The position numbers and the translations under genes were made by a program. A DNA stretch of 64,000 bases from an uncultured Clostridia bacterium (GTDB lineage Bacteria; Bacillota; Clostridia; Christensenellales; Borkfalkiaceae), in NCBI GenBank assembly GCA_944354125.1, contig CALVPT010000001.1, forward strand, positions 124,001 to 188,000, read 5' to 3'. The notes below the pieces were generated by a model. That model made no database searches and had not been told where the DNA came from. It saw only the letters and a list, made by a program, of their open reading frames with translations. Of this stretch, positions 30,703 to 61,857 are shown in pieces (the stretch's first letter is position 1; every line of letters begins with the position of its first letter).

Positions 30703-33700
30703 TTATTCAACAAATTTTATGTCCTTTTCGTACAGATAGCCCCTCAGCTCGGCAATGAGTCCCCTGCAATAGTTTATGCCGGATGGCAGACGGTACTTTT
30801 TATTGCCCCTTACTATCGCGCACAGCGTTTCGCCCTCGTAATTTGTAAGCACGCCGACAATTTCGTCGAAGTCCTCGTCCGAAAGTTCGCTTGCATTGAG
30901 CCACAGAGTGGCTTTGCGCTGTTTTACGGTGTTTGCCTTGGCATTGGCGCTGTCGAAGCCGTCACGGTCAAATTCCTTGACCGTATCTAAAATTATCGTC
31001 GGCTCGTCGGGCTTGGAAAGGTCGAGCTTACCCTTAATCGAGACAATTTTGTCAACGGCTATCGCCGCCTTTGACCGCTCGTAAATTGCGGGGAACGCGA
31101 CGCACTCAACCGAACCGTAGACATCCTCGAGCGTGAGGAATGCCATGGTTGCGCCGGAACTTCTCGTCGTCGTCCTCTTGTATGCCGAGATGATTCCGCC
31201 CATATTTACCGCCATTCCGTCGGTTATGCTGTTGTACGTCCTGTTGCCGTCCTCGTCCTCATTGAAGTCGGAAATAAGCGAACAGTTAAAGTTGCACTCC
31301 CTGAACGCCGCCATGTACTTCTCGAAGGGGTGACCGCTGACATAAACGCCGAGCACCTGCTTTTCGCGCGACAGCTTTTCCATGAGTTCGTATTCGGGCA
31401 GGTCGGGATAGTCGACCACCAGCTTTTCCTCTTCAATGATATCCCCGAAAAGGCTGAGCTGATTGCTGTTTTTCTGCTTGTTTATGGCAACGGCGCGCGA
31501 ATAGAGTTCGTCGTAGACGGCATAGAGCTGGGAACGCCTTACGCCCATCGAATCGAACGCGCCGGCTAAGATAAGTCCCTCTATAATTCTCTTGTTGACG
31601 ACGCCCGCGCAGCGCATAATGAAGTCGGGGAAATCGACGAACGGTCCGTTTTCCGTCCTCTCCTTTATTACTTCGTCTATCGCAGCTTGTCCGCTGCCCT
31701 TAAGAGCCGAAAGGCCGAAACGGATACCGTCGTTTTCTACGGCGAAAGCCGTCTTGGACTTATTTATGTCGGGAGGGAACAGCTTCATTCCCTTTTCCTT
31801 TATATATAATACGTACTTGGTAATTTCGTCTATTTTGTTGAGACGGTTATTCAGGAGCGCGCATATGAACTCCTTGCAGTAATAGCGCTTGAGCCATGCC
31901 GTCTGGTACGCAAGCGTTGCATATGCCGCCGCGTGCGACTTATTGAACGCATAGGAGGCAAATCCCTCCATGTTGGCAAATATCTTTGCCGCGACGTCCG
32001 CCGAAATGCCGTTATTGACGCAGCCGACAATCTTGCTGCCGTTGGTATCGCTGATGCCGCCGTTTATGAATTTCTCCTTCTGCGCCATCAGCGTCTTTTT
32101 ATCCTTCTTGCCCATCGCCCTTCTGACGAGGTCTGCCTCGCCGAGCGAGAAGCCTGCAAGGAACTGGAAGATCTGCATGACCTGTTCCTGGTAGACGGGA
32201 ATGCCGTAGGTGACCTTAAGTATCTTCTCCTCTTCGGGACAGTCGTAGGTTATGGGCTCTTCGCCGTGCTTTCTCTTGCAGAAACTGTCTATGAACTTCA
32301 TGGGACCGGGACGATAGAGCGATATGCCCGCTATCAGGTCTTCGAGAGTATCCGGCTTGAGCGTCTTCATGAACCTCTTCATGCCGCCCTGTTCAAGCTG
32401 GAACACGCCGTCGGTGTCGCCGTCGGAAATGAGTCCGTACGCGCCCGCATCGGTATATCCTATCTTGGTGAAATCGACTACAAATCCCGTATCCTCTTTT
32501 ATATAGTCGACGCACTTTTTGATATCGGTCAGAGTGACCAGCGCAAGGAAGTCCATCTTGAGCATTCCCAGCGCCTCTATTTCCTTTGCCACGAACTGCG
32601 TCGTTATGTCCTCGCCGTTGCGCGACAAGGGAACGTTATCCGCAATCTTTTTGCGGCATATGACGACGCCTGCCGCGTGCATGCCCGTCTGTCTGGGCAT
32701 ACCCTCGAGCTGGAGAGCCATGTCTATTACTCTCTTAAGCGTCTGGTCGGTCTCGTATATCTCGCAGAACTCGGCATTTCTCGCACTCTTGAGCTCGTTG
32801 AGTTTGCCCCTGATTTCCTCCTTCTTGTCGGGGTCGCTTTCGGCGTTCATCTTCTTTTCGGTAGACTGTATTCTTCTGCCAAGAAGGTCGCCTATCGACG
32901 TCTTTCCGTCCATTATCTTTGTAAGTCTGTCGGTTTCCGAATAGGGAACGCGCATGACTCTGCCGACGTCCTTTATGGCGTTCTTTGCCGCCATTGTGCC
33001 GAAAGTGACTATCTGACAGACGTTTTCTGGATGGTATTTCTGTCTTACGTACTCAATTGTCTCCTCGCGCCTGTCCGTGCAGAAGTCGATATCGAAGTCC
33101 GGCATGGATACTCGGTCGGGATTTAAGAAACGCTCGAAGAGAAGGTCGTACTGCAACGGCTCGACATCGGTTATGCCTATCGAATATGCGACTATCGAAC
33201 TTACGCCCGAGCCTCTGCCGGGACCTACGGGAATGCCGTTTTCCTTGGACCAGTTTATGAAGTCCCAGACAATGAGATAGTATTCTGCATAGCCCATGCG
33301 GCAGATTACGTCGAGTTCATAGTCCGCCCTGTCCCTTTCCCTCTTTGTGACAGTGCCGTACCTTCTGACAAGCCCTTCGTCGGTAAGTTTCCTTAAGTAT
33401 TGTTCGGGGGTAGAACCGTCGGGCGGAGTGTAGCCGGGGATAAGGGTCATATCTCTTATGGGATATCCCTTTTTATCGAGGTTGAACGCAGGTTCGACCA
33501 CTTTGTCGGCAATTACCCTGGTGTTGCTTATGGCTTTGGGCAGATTGGGGAAGAGCGCCGCCATCTCGTCGCCCGACTTGAAGTAGAATTCGTCCGTGTC
33601 GAACTTCATTCTCTTGGGATCGTCGAGCGTTTTTTTGGTCTGTATGCACAAGAGCACGTCGTGCATTTCGGCATCTTCTTTCTTGAGATAATGCACGTCG

Positions 33701-34299
33701 TTGGTGGCTACAATCTCGACGCCTATCTCGTCGGCGAGCTTTACGAGAAGGGGCAGAACTCTCCTCTCCTCGGGTATGCCGTGGTCCTGAATTTCAATAT
33801 AGAAATCTTCGCCGAATATGTCCTTAAGGTTGAGCGCCATCTCCCTTGCGCCCTCGTAATCGCCGTTTAAAAGACGCCTGGGAATGCCGCCCGCAAGGCA
33901 CGCCGAAAGGCAGATTACGCCCTCCGAATGTTCCCTGAGAACGTTATAATCTATCTTAGCCTTATAGTAAAAGCCGTCGACAAACGCCATCGAGTCGAGC
34001 TGTACGAGATTCTTATACCCTGCCTTGTTTTTTGCAAGAAGTATGAGGTGCTCGGCGGTGTTGCCCTCATGCTTGTACATATCCTTGGTGAGGTAGAATT
34101 CACAGCCTATTATGTACTTTATGCCTGCAATCGCCGCCTTTTCGGCAAAATGCAGAGTGCCGTACATATTGCCGTGGTCGGTGATGCATACGGTGTCTAC
34201 GCCGTTATTTTTACAGTAATCAATTAAATTGTCAATTTTGCAGGCACCGTCCAACAGCGAATATTCCGTATGGAGGTGCAGATGCACGAAATCTGTCAT
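30703..34299 (-). CDS. dnaE: DNA polymerase III alpha subunit DnaE
   Basis: Replicative DNA polymerase of 1198 residues. The N-terminal PHP domain keeps all nine expected metal ligands: H8 and H10 (HLHTEYS), D17, H42 (TDHGN), E67 (GCEFY), H84 (HLILLAKN), C134 (LSACLAGG), D201 and H203 (ATNDVHY). The polymerase has GPGRGSGVSSIVAY, PDFDIDF (400-406) and KMDFLAL. A tandem HhH and an OB domain (MGGIISAYKRTTTR) follow. It lies in a PHP-whiA-dnaE operon. Because the polC locus here lacks a polymerase, this may be the main replicase. Confidence 0.97.
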   Translation of the reverse strand: MTDFVHLHLHTEYSLLDGACKIDNLIDYCKNNGVDTVCITDHGNMYGTLHFAEKAAIAGIKYIIGCEFYLTKDMYKHEGNTAEHLILLAKNKAGYKNLVQLDSMAFVDGFYYKAKIDYNVLREHSEGVICLSACLAGGIPRRLLNGDYEGAREMALNLKDIFGEDFYIEIQDHGIPEERRVLPLLVKLADEIGVEIVATNDVHYLKKEDAEMHDVLLCIQTKKTLDDPKRMKFDTDEFYFKSGDEMAALFPNLPKAISNTRVIADKVVEPAFNLDKKGYPIRDMTLIPGYTPPDGSTPEQYLRKLTDEGLVRRYGTVTKRERDRADYELDVICRMGYAEYYLIVWDFINWSKENGIPVGPGRGSGVSSIVAYSIGITDVEPLQYDLLFERFLNPDRVSMPDFDIDFCTDRREETIEYVRQKYHPENVCQIVTFGTMAAKNAIKDVGRVMRVPYSETDRLTKIMDGKTSIGDLLGRRIQSTEKKMNAESDPDKKEEIRGKLNELKSARNAEFCEIYETDQTLKRVIDMALQLEGMPRQTGMHAAGVVICRKKIADNVPLSRNGEDITTQFVAKEIEALGMLKMDFLALVTLTDIKKCVDYIKEDTGFVVDFTKIGYTDAGAYGLISDGDTDGVFQLEQGGMKRFMKTLKPDTLEDLIAGISLYRPGPMKFIDSFCKRKHGEEPITYDCPEEEKILKVTYGIPVYQEQVMQIFQFLAGFSLGEADLVRRAMGKKDKKTLMAQKEKFINGGISDTNGSKIVGCVNNGISADVAAKIFANMEGFASYAFNKSHAAAYATLAYQTAWLKRYYCKEFICALLNNRLNKIDEITKYVLYIKEKGMKLFPPDINKSKTAFAVENDGIRFGLSALKGSGQAAIDEVIKERTENGPFVDFPDFIMRCAGVVNKRIIEGLILAGAFDSMGVRRSQLYAVYDELYSRAVAINKQKNSNQLSLFGDIIEEEKLVVDYPDLPEYELMEKLSREKQVLGVYVSGHPFEKYMAAFRECNFNCSLISDFNEDEDGNRTYNSITDGMAVNMGGIISAYKRTTTRSSGATMAFLTLEDVYGSVECVAFPAIYERSKAAIAVDKIVSIKGKLDLSKPDEPTIILDTVKEFDRDGFDSANAKANTVKQRKATLWLNASELSDEDFDEIVGVLTNYEGETLCAIVRGNKKYRLPSGINYCRGLIAELRGYLYEKDIKFVE

Positions 34300-58706: not shown

Positions 58707-59165
58707 TTATTCGAATTTGATAGCCTTGTTTATCTTGGCTATTCTGTTGCGGGGCACCTTGACGCTTTCGCCCTTGACGGCAAGAGTGACGCTGTTTTCG
58801 TCAAATTCCGAGAGAATGCCCTCGATGAGCTTTTTGCCCTTGAGAGGTGAATAGAGCTTAACCTCTACCTCCTTGCCGAGATTTCTTTCGAAGTCCCTTG
58901 TCGTTTTGAAAGGTCTGTCAAGCCCGGGGCTGGAGACGTTGAGCGTATAGGGGTCGCCGTAGCTGGGGTCGAGCTCGTCGATAGGCTCGGTAATTGCGTT
59001 ATGGAATTTTTCGCAGGTATCGAGGTCGACTCCGCTTTCGGTTTCTATGAATATCGTCAGTTCGCCCTGCTTTTCGTTTAAGGCAATATCGACGATTTCA
59101 ATGCCCATTGGCGCCGCTATTCCCTCGGCAAAACTCCATATCTCTTCCACAGATTTGAATTTCAT
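58707..59165 (-). CDS. rimP: Ribosome maturation factor RimP
   Basis: 152 residues from the ATG at 59163-59165 (GGAG 5 bases upstream); the upstream TTG frame runs through a hairpin and is rejected. Conserved segments: GIEIVDIALNEKQGELTIFI, YTLNVSSPGLDRPFKT and the SH3-like tail. Needed for 30S assembly. First gene of the long operon that runs to 46539, with its own promoter. Confidence 0.95.
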   Translation of the reverse strand: MKFKSVEEIWSFAEGIAAPMGIEIVDIALNEKQGELTIFIETESGVDLDTCEKFHNAITEPIDELDPSYGDPYTLNVSSPGLDRPFKTTRDFERNLGKEVEVKLYSPLKGKKLIEGILSEFDENSVTLAVKGESVKVPRNRIAKINKAIKFE

Positions 59166-59183
59166 ATTGCTCCATATATAAGG

Positions 59184-59211
59184 ATTGAGTGCCTTTGTCA
59201 AGGCACTCAAT
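59184..59211 (-). promoter_or_regulatory. Hairpin in the rimP leader
   Basis: A perfect 12-bp stem ATTGAGTGCCTT/AAGGCACTCAAT (59184-59195 with 59200-59211), loop of 4. It ends about 20 bases before the rimP ATG and has no U-tract. It occupies most of the 65-base leader. Confidence 0.7.
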
Positions 59212-59238
59212 CTTAAAACTAAGTATTAAGTCTTTTAC

Positions 59239-59267
59239 ATTATAACATACGACTTTCGATTTGGCAA
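59239..59267 (-). promoter_or_regulatory. Promoter of the rimP-nusA-infB operon
   Basis: Minus strand: TTGCCA (59262-59267), a 17-base spacer and TATAAT (59239-59244). It begins 3 bases past the stop of the PolC-derived exonuclease gene, separating that gene from the operon. Confidence 0.8.
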
Positions 59268-59270
59268 GTT

Positions 59271-60806
59271 TTAGCAGAGGTTTGGCAAAGATTTTTTTAT
59301 TTTTATAAGTTCTTTGAATATCTTTGCCGTGACCAGCGCATCGTCCGCCGCCCTGTGATGGTTGAAAGTTATGCCGAAATGGTTTGCAATGGTGTCCAGC
59401 TTATAGTTGGAAAGGCGCAGAAGCTGCTGCGCGAGGGGGAACGTGTCAAACAGCTTTCTCTCGAGCATATAGCCGCACTGCGAACAATAATAATCGACGA
59501 ACTTGAAGTCGAAGTTGGCGGCATTGTGGCCTACGAGATATGCCCCGTCGCAGAACTTGAAAAAGTCTGGCATTACTTCCTCGAAATCGGGGGCGTTGTC
59601 TACGTCCGACTGCACTATGCCCGTAAGTTTTACTATCTCCTCGGAGAGCTTGCGCCTGGGATTGACAAAGGTCGAGAACTTTTCGGTAATCTCTCCGCCG
59701 ACCATCCTGAACGCGCCTATCTCTATTATCCTGTCCATATTGCCTGCCGAGGGCGAACTGTTAAGACCCGTCGTCTCGAGGTCGAATATTACGAACACGT
59801 TGTCCTTAAGGCAGTCGGGAACGCTTCTGTCCGAAAACATGTCGTCCTGCGTGAATTCCTCGAAGGGCTGCGGACGAATGGTCTCGTAGTACTTCGGGAC
59901 GGGCTTGGACATGCGCTTTTCGGGCACGAACCCTTCGGGAACACTGCCGTAATCGATGAAGTTGGCAGTTGCCCTTACCATTCCGTTATAGGTATCCGTC
60001 TTGCAGGTCATGACTATGCTGTCCCCGACCTGTAGCTTCTTTATCTTTTCTATGCTCTTTTTGCGCGCAAAGTAGCTTATGCGCATAGACGCGGTCGTAT
60101 CGTTGAGCGTAAAGCTGAACATTGTGCGCTCCTTGCCCGTGCTGTTTTCGAAAGTTCGCTCCCTTATGTCCTCTATTTTGCCGCACACGACGACGTTTTC
60201 GCTTATGAAATTGAGGTCGCTTAAGTATACCGCCGTCTTTTTGCTCTCCGTGCTCTCTATGAAGGAGAAATCGGATATTTCAAACGTTCTGACGGGTATG
60301 ACGTACTCTATATTTTCGTGCTCTTCCTCGATTTCTATATTTTCTGCCTTGGAAGAGTCGGCAATGCACTTGCCCGAGAACTCGCCGCAGAAACACTTTT
60401 TCAGCTCTGCCGAAACAGCCGCTATGAAGTCGTTGGAGTAGGCATTGACGCTTATGACCTTTACGGTAAAGTAAAAGCCGTTCTGAACCTTCTCCACGGC
60501 GACGTCGCTTTCGCCTATGAACGCCGAAAGAGGACGGTTGACATTGGGAATTATCTCCAAGATTTTGCGCGCAACCATTCCCTCGTCCGGGGTGAGTTTG
60601 GAAATCTTTACCCTTACCGAAAAGAGGTCGGGCACGTATTGAGAAACTATCTCCTTTACTTCGGTCTCGTCGGCGGAGGTGAATGCCTTGTCCGTGACCA
60701 GGCTGACCTCTACGGCGTTTTCCGCCCTTACAAGCGTTACCGAAGTCAGAATAGCCGTGTTCATGTTGGCTATTCCCCTTATGTCGTCAATAAATTTTTC
60801 AGTCAT
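59271..60806 (-). CDS. PolC-derived protein: N-terminal and OB domains plus DEDDh exonuclease, no PHP or polymerase
   Basis: 511 residues at the ispG-rimP position where Bacillota carry polC (about 1430 residues). Residues 1-150 resemble the PolC N-terminal region. Residues about 200-288 match the PolC OB domain (VVVCGKIEDIRERTFENSTG, VGDSIVMTCKTDTYNGMVRA). After a linker, residues 335-503 are a DnaQ-like exonuclease with intact D342, E344 (FDLETTG), D433 (HNAANFDF), H484 and D489 (HHRAADDA). In PolC the exonuclease is inserted in a PHP domain; here neither PHP half nor the polymerase exists, and a clean TAA follows. ATG start, overlapping ispG by 8 bp. Proofreading or repair roles are inferred. 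Confidence 0.88.
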   Translation of the reverse strand: MTEKFIDDIRGIANMNTAILTSVTLVRAENAVEVSLVTDKAFTSADETEVKEIVSQYVPDLFSVRVKISKLTPDEGMVARKILEIIPNVNRPLSAFIGESDVAVEKVQNGFYFTVKVISVNAYSNDFIAAVSAELKKCFCGEFSGKCIADSSKAENIEIEEEHENIEYVIPVRTFEISDFSFIESTESKKTAVYLSDLNFISENVVVCGKIEDIRERTFENSTGKERTMFSFTLNDTTASMRISYFARKKSIEKIKKLQVGDSIVMTCKTDTYNGMVRATANFIDYGSVPEGFVPEKRMSKPVPKYYETIRPQPFEEFTQDDMFSDRSVPDCLKDNVFVIFDLETTGLNSSPSAGNMDRIIEIGAFRMVGGEITEKFSTFVNPRRKLSEEIVKLTGIVQSDVDNAPDFEEVMPDFFKFCDGAYLVGHNAANFDFKFVDYYCSQCGYMLERKLFDTFPLAQQLLRLSNYKLDTIANHFGITFNHHRAADDALVTAKIFKELIKIKKSLPNLC

Positions 60807-61857
60807 TTAGAAGTCCTTCCAGTTCGGCGAAAAATGCGCTCTCAGCATCCGCCGCGTCAACCTTTCTGATTATTTCGCCGCGTCTGAATATCACGCAATA
60901 GTCCTTTGACCCTGCAATTCCTATGTCGCAGTCCCTTGCCTCGCCCGGGCCGTTGACAACGCAGCCCATCACGGCGACTTTGAGCGGCTTACCTACCTTT
61001 TCTACGCGCGCCGATACCTTTTCGGCAAGGCCGACGACGTCCCATTGCGTTCTGCCGCAGGTCGGGCAGGAAATGACGTCCACGAAATTCTTATCCAGCC
61101 CTATGGCGCGCAGAAGGCGCTTTGCAGCATATATTTCCTTTACGGGGTCACCCGTTATGGATATGCGCATCGTGTCGCCTATGCCGTCAATTAATAGCGC
61201 GCCGAGCGCAGCGCTCGACTTGACTATCGCCATCTGCTCCGTCCCCGCCTCGGTGACGCCTATGTGCAGGGGGTAATCGCACCTCTTTGAAAGAAGCCTG
61301 TACGCGCCGACCGTCAGCCTTACGTCCGACGCCTTGACCGAGATGACTATGTCGCTTACGCCGTGTCTTTCTAAAATTGCGGCGTTATAGAGGGCGCTTT
61401 CGACCAGCGCCTCCCTGCTTCTGCCGTATTTTTCGGCAAACTGCTTTTCTATGCTGCCCGTATTCGCGCCCACCCTCACGGGTATTTTATGCGCCTTAAT
61501 GCAGTCGGCTACGATTGCAATTTCCCTCTCTCCGCCGATATTGCCGGGATTTATGCGCACCTTGTCGCATCCGCTTTCAATAGCCTTGACGGCAAGCTTA
61601 TAAGAAAAATGAATGTCCGCGACAACGGGCAGACCGCCACATTTGAGCTTTGCTATTGCCGCTGCGTCCGCCTCGTCGAGAACTGACACCCTTATTATGT
61701 CGCATCCCGCATCTTTGAGCGCGGCAATCTGCTTCAGCGTTGCCTCCGTATCAGCCGTGCGCGTCGTGCACATGGACTGGATTTTGACGCGTGATGCGCC
61801 GCCTATCTTGATATTTCCGCAGGTTACCTGCCTTGTGATTTTTGCAGTATTTTCCAT
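60799..61857 (-). CDS. ispG: 4-hydroxy-3-methylbut-2-enyl diphosphate synthase IspG (GcpE)
   Basis: Penultimate step of the MEP isoprenoid pathway. The 352 residues have the TIM-barrel part (GGASRVKIQSMCTTRTADTE, RINPGNIGG) and the 4Fe-4S C-terminal domain with SCPTCGRTQWD and CVVNGPGEARDCDIGIAGS. Other MEP genes usually precede it; here nrdR does, with a terminator between. No clear promoter was found, so read-through from nrdR is likely. Confidence 0.97.
   Translation of the reverse strand: MENTAKITRQVTCGNIKIGGASRVKIQSMCTTRTADTEATLKQIAALKDAGCDIIRVSVLDEADAAAIAKLKCGGLPVVADIHFSYKLAVKAIESGCDKVRINPGNIGGEREIAIVADCIKAHKIPVRVGANTGSIEKQFAEKYGRSREALVESALYNAAILERHGVSDIVISVKASDVRLTVGAYRLLSKRCDYPLHIGVTEAGTEQMAIVKSSAALGALLIDGIGDTMRISITGDPVKEIYAAKRLLRAIGLDKNFVDVISCPTCGRTQWDVVGLAEKVSARVEKVGKPLKVAVMGCVVNGPGEARDCDIGIAGSKDYCVIFRRGEIIRKVDAADAESAFFAELEGLLND

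Follow-up and report, generated by a model that had tools for sequence, protein, structure and literature searches.

A stand-alone exonuclease of PolC origin in the polC slot of Christensenellales genomes

Can the gene of a replicative polymerase lose its polymerase and still be kept? The question is raised by a locus of an uncultured Clostridia bacterium of the order Christensenellales, contained in a stretch of 64,000 nucleotides (positions 124,001 to 188,000 of contig CALVPT010000001.1, assembly GCA_944354125.1; hereafter the window). Between ispG and rimP, where polC would be expected, lies a frame of 511 residues, which the original prediction, made from the letters of this one stretch, took for a polC gene reduced to its N-domain, OB and exonuclease parts. 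The locus comprises the following features:

59271..60806, minus strand: stand-alone PolC-derived protein, NTD-OB-linker-Exo, 511 aa (open reading frame, domains, homologues)
60799..61857, minus strand: ispG, upstream neighbour, with an 8-bp overlap with the stand-alone gene (GcpE, E = 7e-134)
58707..59210, minus strand: rimP, downstream neighbour (RimP_N and DUF150_C)
59239..59267, minus strand: promoter-like site between the stand-alone gene and rimP (consensus match only, 11/12)

The open reading frame call confirmed a complete frame with a clean end: it opens with an ATG, contains no internal stop and shares the 8 bp from 60799 to 60806 with the end of ispG, as had been proposed. The promoter placed 3′ of the gene corresponds to a promoter-like TTGCCA-17-TATAAT at 59267–59239, identified by its 11 of 12 consensus matches only. 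Since no more than 60 bp separate the gene end from the listed rimP start, there is no space for polymerase remnants, in agreement with the earlier claim that none were left. The listed rimP start (TTG, 59210) is itself probably too early, an ATG at residue 16 fitting better; within the leader ahead of this ATG (window 59165–59271) are a strong promoter-like site and a hairpin of 13 bp (59212–59183).

The protein itself can be divided as follows:

60342..60806, minus strand: N-terminal domain (NTD), residues 1–155, tandem KH/BON-like fold, homologue of the PolC NTD (hhalign, model)
59931..60245, minus strand: OB domain, residues 188–292 (Pfam OB, E = 2.6e-7; hhalign)
59835..59849, minus strand: putative beta-clamp-binding motif QDDMF, residues 320–324, in a disordered linker (sequence, conservation)
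59298..59798, minus strand: DEDDh 3′–5′ exonuclease domain, residues 337–503 (Pfam RNase_T; 2p1j)

Pfam places RNase_T at residues 339–497 (E = 6e-40) and an OB fold at 205–277, and detects neither a PHP nor a polymerase domain, which agrees with the predicted presence of a PolC-like OB and absence of the rest. The exonuclease matches that of PolC (2p1j, E = 4e-36), and its five predicted catalytic residues (D342, E344, D433, H484 and D489) are unchanged in 30 aligned homologues. The NCBI PolC model (TIGR01405), which has a cut-off of 873 bits, scores the protein at 167 bits and aligns best over the exonuclease; the proteobacterial DnaQ equivalog (TIGR01406) gives 100 bits against 222.7. The Pfam models of the PolC N-domain do not match the protein, and linking its NTD to that of PolC required profile–profile comparison (hhalign, 97.4%, E = 1.2e-11 over 139 columns); the same method pairs the two OB domains at 99.5% (E = 3e-22). 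In the predicted structure (mean pLDDT 84; 85 for the NTD) the best PDB fold match is PolC 9qpc; epsilon structures are also among the top matches, and the DEDDh exonuclease fold is present. A PDB fold search with the NTD alone returned weak, mixed KH-like (KH-II) and BON-like matches and no PolC. As compared with PolC (TIGR01405), the stand-alone protein thus has homologous NTD, OB and exonuclease domains in the same order and in the same slot after ispG, but it lacks PHP-N, PHP-C, palm, fingers, thumb and HhH.

The history of the exonuclease was addressed by phylogeny. A first tree that included long-branch outgroups mixed long branches into the group, and these outgroups were then removed. 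In the resulting tree, 28 stand-alone exonucleases are monophyletic (100/98) and belong to a group of PolC and stand-alone sequences (100/99) that is set apart from other DnaQ-like enzymes. This rules out descent from DnaQ or DinG, a grouping that the original prediction had singled out as fatal to a PolC origin; both the exonuclease (tree) and the OB domain (hhalign) side with PolC. A position of the stand-alone clade inside PolC and one beside it are both compatible with the tree. A DnaE tree, built by quick search from 56 genomes (LG+G4, without bootstrap), splits genomes with PolC from genomes with the stand-alone gene with full support and calls for a single change.

A search of GTDB species genomes found 38 homologues, the nearest group being 50–91% identical and four remoter groups 28–38%. 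Candidatus Coproplasma is represented among the homologues, in keeping with the order Christensenellales. The gene is full length (508–513 aa) on 36 other contigs, while two further copies reach contig ends; because of these independent full-length copies an assembly join, suggested earlier as a possible cause of the short frame, is excluded. Throughout this set ispG lies directly upstream wherever the contig reaches it, and rimP-nusA-ylxR-infB follow where the contig allows, with the exception of one locus without rimP in its flank (L040). Among 151 genomes of the order, 80 encode the stand-alone form (approximately 470–550 aa; 74 found directly and six, in families f16 and f30, by slot inspection), 58 encode PolC and none encodes both; the other 13, mostly incomplete genomes, were assigned to neither form. 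Family f16 could have been taken to lack the gene, a reading that was discarded because a copy whose exonuclease has decayed sits in its slot. In genome G142, polC has a 515-aa exonuclease frame next to it; co-occurrence of the two forms was likewise rejected here, the N-terminal part of that frame being unrelated. When 20 loci of each kind were compared with their flanks, ispG preceded both kinds in nearly all, and the slot after it holds either a frame of approximately 500–550 aa or a PolC of approximately 1400 aa, usually followed by rimP-nusA. In one f6 genome, an insert of approximately 2 kb separates the stand-alone gene from rimP (L107, 9910–11924). In a class-wide sample (E ≤ 1e-45), stand-alone frames among the matches listed came only from the same order; the other matches have the exonuclease inside PolC-size frames or fragments of such frames.

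Synteny, domain homology and trees together support the proposed origin at the polC site between ispG and rimP. Because PolC occurs throughout the class, the simplest reading is an in-situ reduction of polC, dating to the ancestor shared by one large clade; at least two deletions would then be required, one of PHP-N and one of PHP-C with the polymerase. The reduced gene described from one genome is real, but it characterises an entire clade and not a single genome. The alternative, that an ancestral NTD-OB-Exo protein predated the polymerase of PolC, appears very improbable: the exonuclease tree does allow a placement outside every sampled PolC (p-AU 0.60), but PolC is spread across the class, the stand-alone form has been seen in one order only, it occupies the same slot as PolC, and the DnaE tree asks for a single switch. 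Hardly any credence can be given to an assembly artefact, to a pseudogene or to the insertion of a DnaQ/DinG gene here, in favour of which nothing was found, while the gene recurs in dozens of independent contigs, is under purifying selection, which rules out a pseudogene, and has an NTD and OB homologous to those of PolC.

What, then, replicates and proofreads the chromosome? The genome to which the window belongs (1.77 Mb, 97% complete) was searched for a full-length PolC, the check that had been proposed at the outset. The PolC model found no second PolC at E ≤ 1e-40, and the polymerase model found a single DnaE, located in the same window:

30703..34299, minus strand: dnaE, sole Pol III alpha of the genome, with an intact PHP site (HHDHEHCDH) and the clamp motif QLSLF

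These searches rule out a second PolC, including one without Exo. The stand-alone protein, when searched against its own genome, retrieved two weak DnaQ-like matches and nothing else, and the two other DnaQ-like proteins found in the genome both fall short of the epsilon model cut-offs. A small DnaQ-like exonuclease of 213 aa with uncharacterised neighbours, below the epsilon cut-offs, is encoded on contig C16 (L002, 1483–2124).

The linker between OB and exonuclease offers a hint as to how the protein might act. QDDMF lies in a segment that is disordered in the model (pLDDT below 50 at 319–325), and its Q320 and F324 show no variation across 30 sequences. The published clamp-binding consensus is QL[S/D]LF or QxxLF, positions 1, 4 and 5 being the most critical (PMC12309361), and the linker motif of locus L016, QADMF, is that of E. 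coli alpha (PMC4703070). Judging from its sequence, QDDMF is a putative beta-clamp-binding pentapeptide. When 77 sequences covering all families were compared, 56 of the 62 DEDDh-intact proteins had a strict Q-x-x-[LMIF]-F in the linker and none of the 15 exonuclease-dead ones did, a contrast that counts related sequences and amounts to approximately three independent losses; shuffled linkers would be expected to contain it in approximately 2% of cases. Three catalytically intact proteins (L248, L249 and L252) have a linker without the motif. PolCs differ in this respect: none of 41 has the motif between OB and Exo, and 36 of 41 have it in the last 25 residues, whereas the stand-alone protein has no C-terminal motif and carries its putative one in the OB-Exo linker. 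The joint loss of motif and catalysis in approximately three independent lineages suggests that the two work together. This candidate motif, which is new relative to the original prediction, adds an argument to its suggestion of a proofreading partner for DnaE.

The gene is clearly under purifying selection. Close pairs from the family of the window have a dN/dS of 0.04–0.14 for the whole protein, the lowest values, 0.02–0.08, being those of the exonuclease, and all five DEDDh residues are kept in 62 of the 77 homologues. Three lineages have lost most or all of them, namely f19 (L108, L110 and L235–L240), f16 (L229–L233 and L241–L245) and one genus of f32 (L109 and L246). These dead versions are intact frames of 495–550 aa, with a dN/dS of approximately 0.07–0.34 where computable, dS being near saturation; all three lineages are also without the strict motif, yet the gene is under purifying selection. 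Since the gene persists in them although its exonuclease is dead, exonuclease activity is not its sole selected function. The view that selection has maintained the gene is therefore borne out, but not that it did so for the exonuclease alone.

The architecture, the PolC origin of the domains, the mutual exclusion with PolC, the selection and the conserved motif are supported by the data. As to function, we favour, with some reserve, a PolC-derived, epsilon-like 3′–5′ exonuclease that would be tethered to the clamp and act in trans with DnaE. In the ancestor of the clade, PolC would have lost both PHP halves and the whole polymerase, leaving NTD, OB and exonuclease, and DnaE would have become the only replicative polymerase. 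The linker that replaced PHP-N would carry the clamp-binding pentapeptide, so that the protein could sit on the beta clamp beside DnaE and trim mismatched 3′ ends, as does E. coli epsilon. The OB domain may hold single-stranded DNA, and the NTD may contact the clamp loader, given that the PolC NTD is related to tau domain V (cited in a passage of PMC3919608). In three lineages the exonuclease would have died, leaving only the role of NTD and OB. As for the course of evolution as a whole, we lean slightly towards a scenario in which a replicative polymerase lost its polymerase part at the native site of its gene and became a proofreading subunit of its own, tethered to the clamp by a relocated motif, and in which decay to a non-catalytic replisome factor then followed three times.

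The proofreading assignment has to be weighed against the state of DnaE. Each of the 55 DnaEs whose frames were extracted correctly, drawn from all groups, has an intact metal site in its PHP domain (the 56th row was an extraction error and is not counted). Compensation for a dead DnaE PHP domain is thus unsupported, and DnaE may proofread by itself, which counts against the favoured explanation. Redundancy is normal in PolC-containing Clostridia, as these usually have several active proofreaders according to a survey (PMC12926913).

If proofreading needs no help, the protein may instead be a clamp-bound nuclease that trims 3′ ends in repair or recombination. Many clamp clients are repair proteins, and the intact PHP exonuclease site of DnaE fits such a role; the domains, however, come from a replicative proofreader, and the loss of PolC would remove a DEDDh proofreader of which this gene is the direct remnant, in the same slot and among housekeeping neighbours. 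We regard a repair role as unlikely. Less likely still is a mainly scaffolding function in the replisome, with the NTD on the clamp loader, the OB domain on single-stranded DNA or SSB, and the exonuclease as a dispensable relic. The versions without DEDDh in f16, f19 and the f32 genus, with their long frames and a dN/dS well below 1, speak for it, but the exonuclease is the most constrained part in the window's family, and 62 of the 77 homologues have a complete DEDDh set.

Several known systems resemble a clamp-tethered proofreader of this kind in part. Like E. coli DnaQ/epsilon, the stand-alone protein is a separate DEDDh 3′–5′ exonuclease with a presumptive clamp-binding peptide beside the domain, and the cell likewise has only one DnaE1; unlike epsilon, its exonuclease is of PolC type, the motif is N-terminal to the domain, NTD and OB are additional, and binding to DnaE is conjectural. 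PolCs without Exo, reported in a passage of PMC3919608 as 6% of PolCs and, with one exception, from Clostridia and Negativicutes, also show that exonuclease and polymerase are separable, but represent the reverse event, in which the polymerase was kept and the exonuclease lost. The DnaE1-only Clostridia of the same survey share the single DnaE1 and the absence of PolC, but the passage on them mentions no PolC remnant. PolX-like proteins without a polymerase region, as described in part of PMC12926913, have also kept a nuclease and lost a polymerase, but they belong to the X family and carry a PHP nuclease, whereas the stand-alone protein belongs to the C family and carries a DEDDh nuclease. 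Passages of these two C-family surveys (PMC3919608, PMC12926913) make no mention of a stand-alone NTD-OB-Exo protein, and text searches of the literature for a truncated PolC, or for PolC in Christensenellales, brought up no description. The domains and the job of a separate DEDDh proofreader are thus known, whereas the architecture and its origin appear to be new as far as the literature searched is concerned.

It would seem that a polymerase has become, in these bacteria, an error-checking subunit of its own. That a clade of gut bacteria dropped the polymerase of PolC and kept its proofreading half suggests that the exonuclease and its replisome contacts are harder to lose than synthesis. 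According to a passage of PMC3919608, clostridial replication with PolC and DnaE1 is experimentally uncharacterised, and the reason for keeping two polymerases is unexplained. The clade can be regarded as an experiment of nature: its sister group has PolC, its putative clamp motif can be tested, and some of its lineages are already catalytic knock-outs. One f11 genome (G039, L165), which the DnaE tree places on the PolC side, has yielded neither PolC nor the stand-alone gene and may have lost PolC independently. Inhibitors of PolC, ibezapolstat for example, are predicted to spare the clade that carries the stand-alone form.
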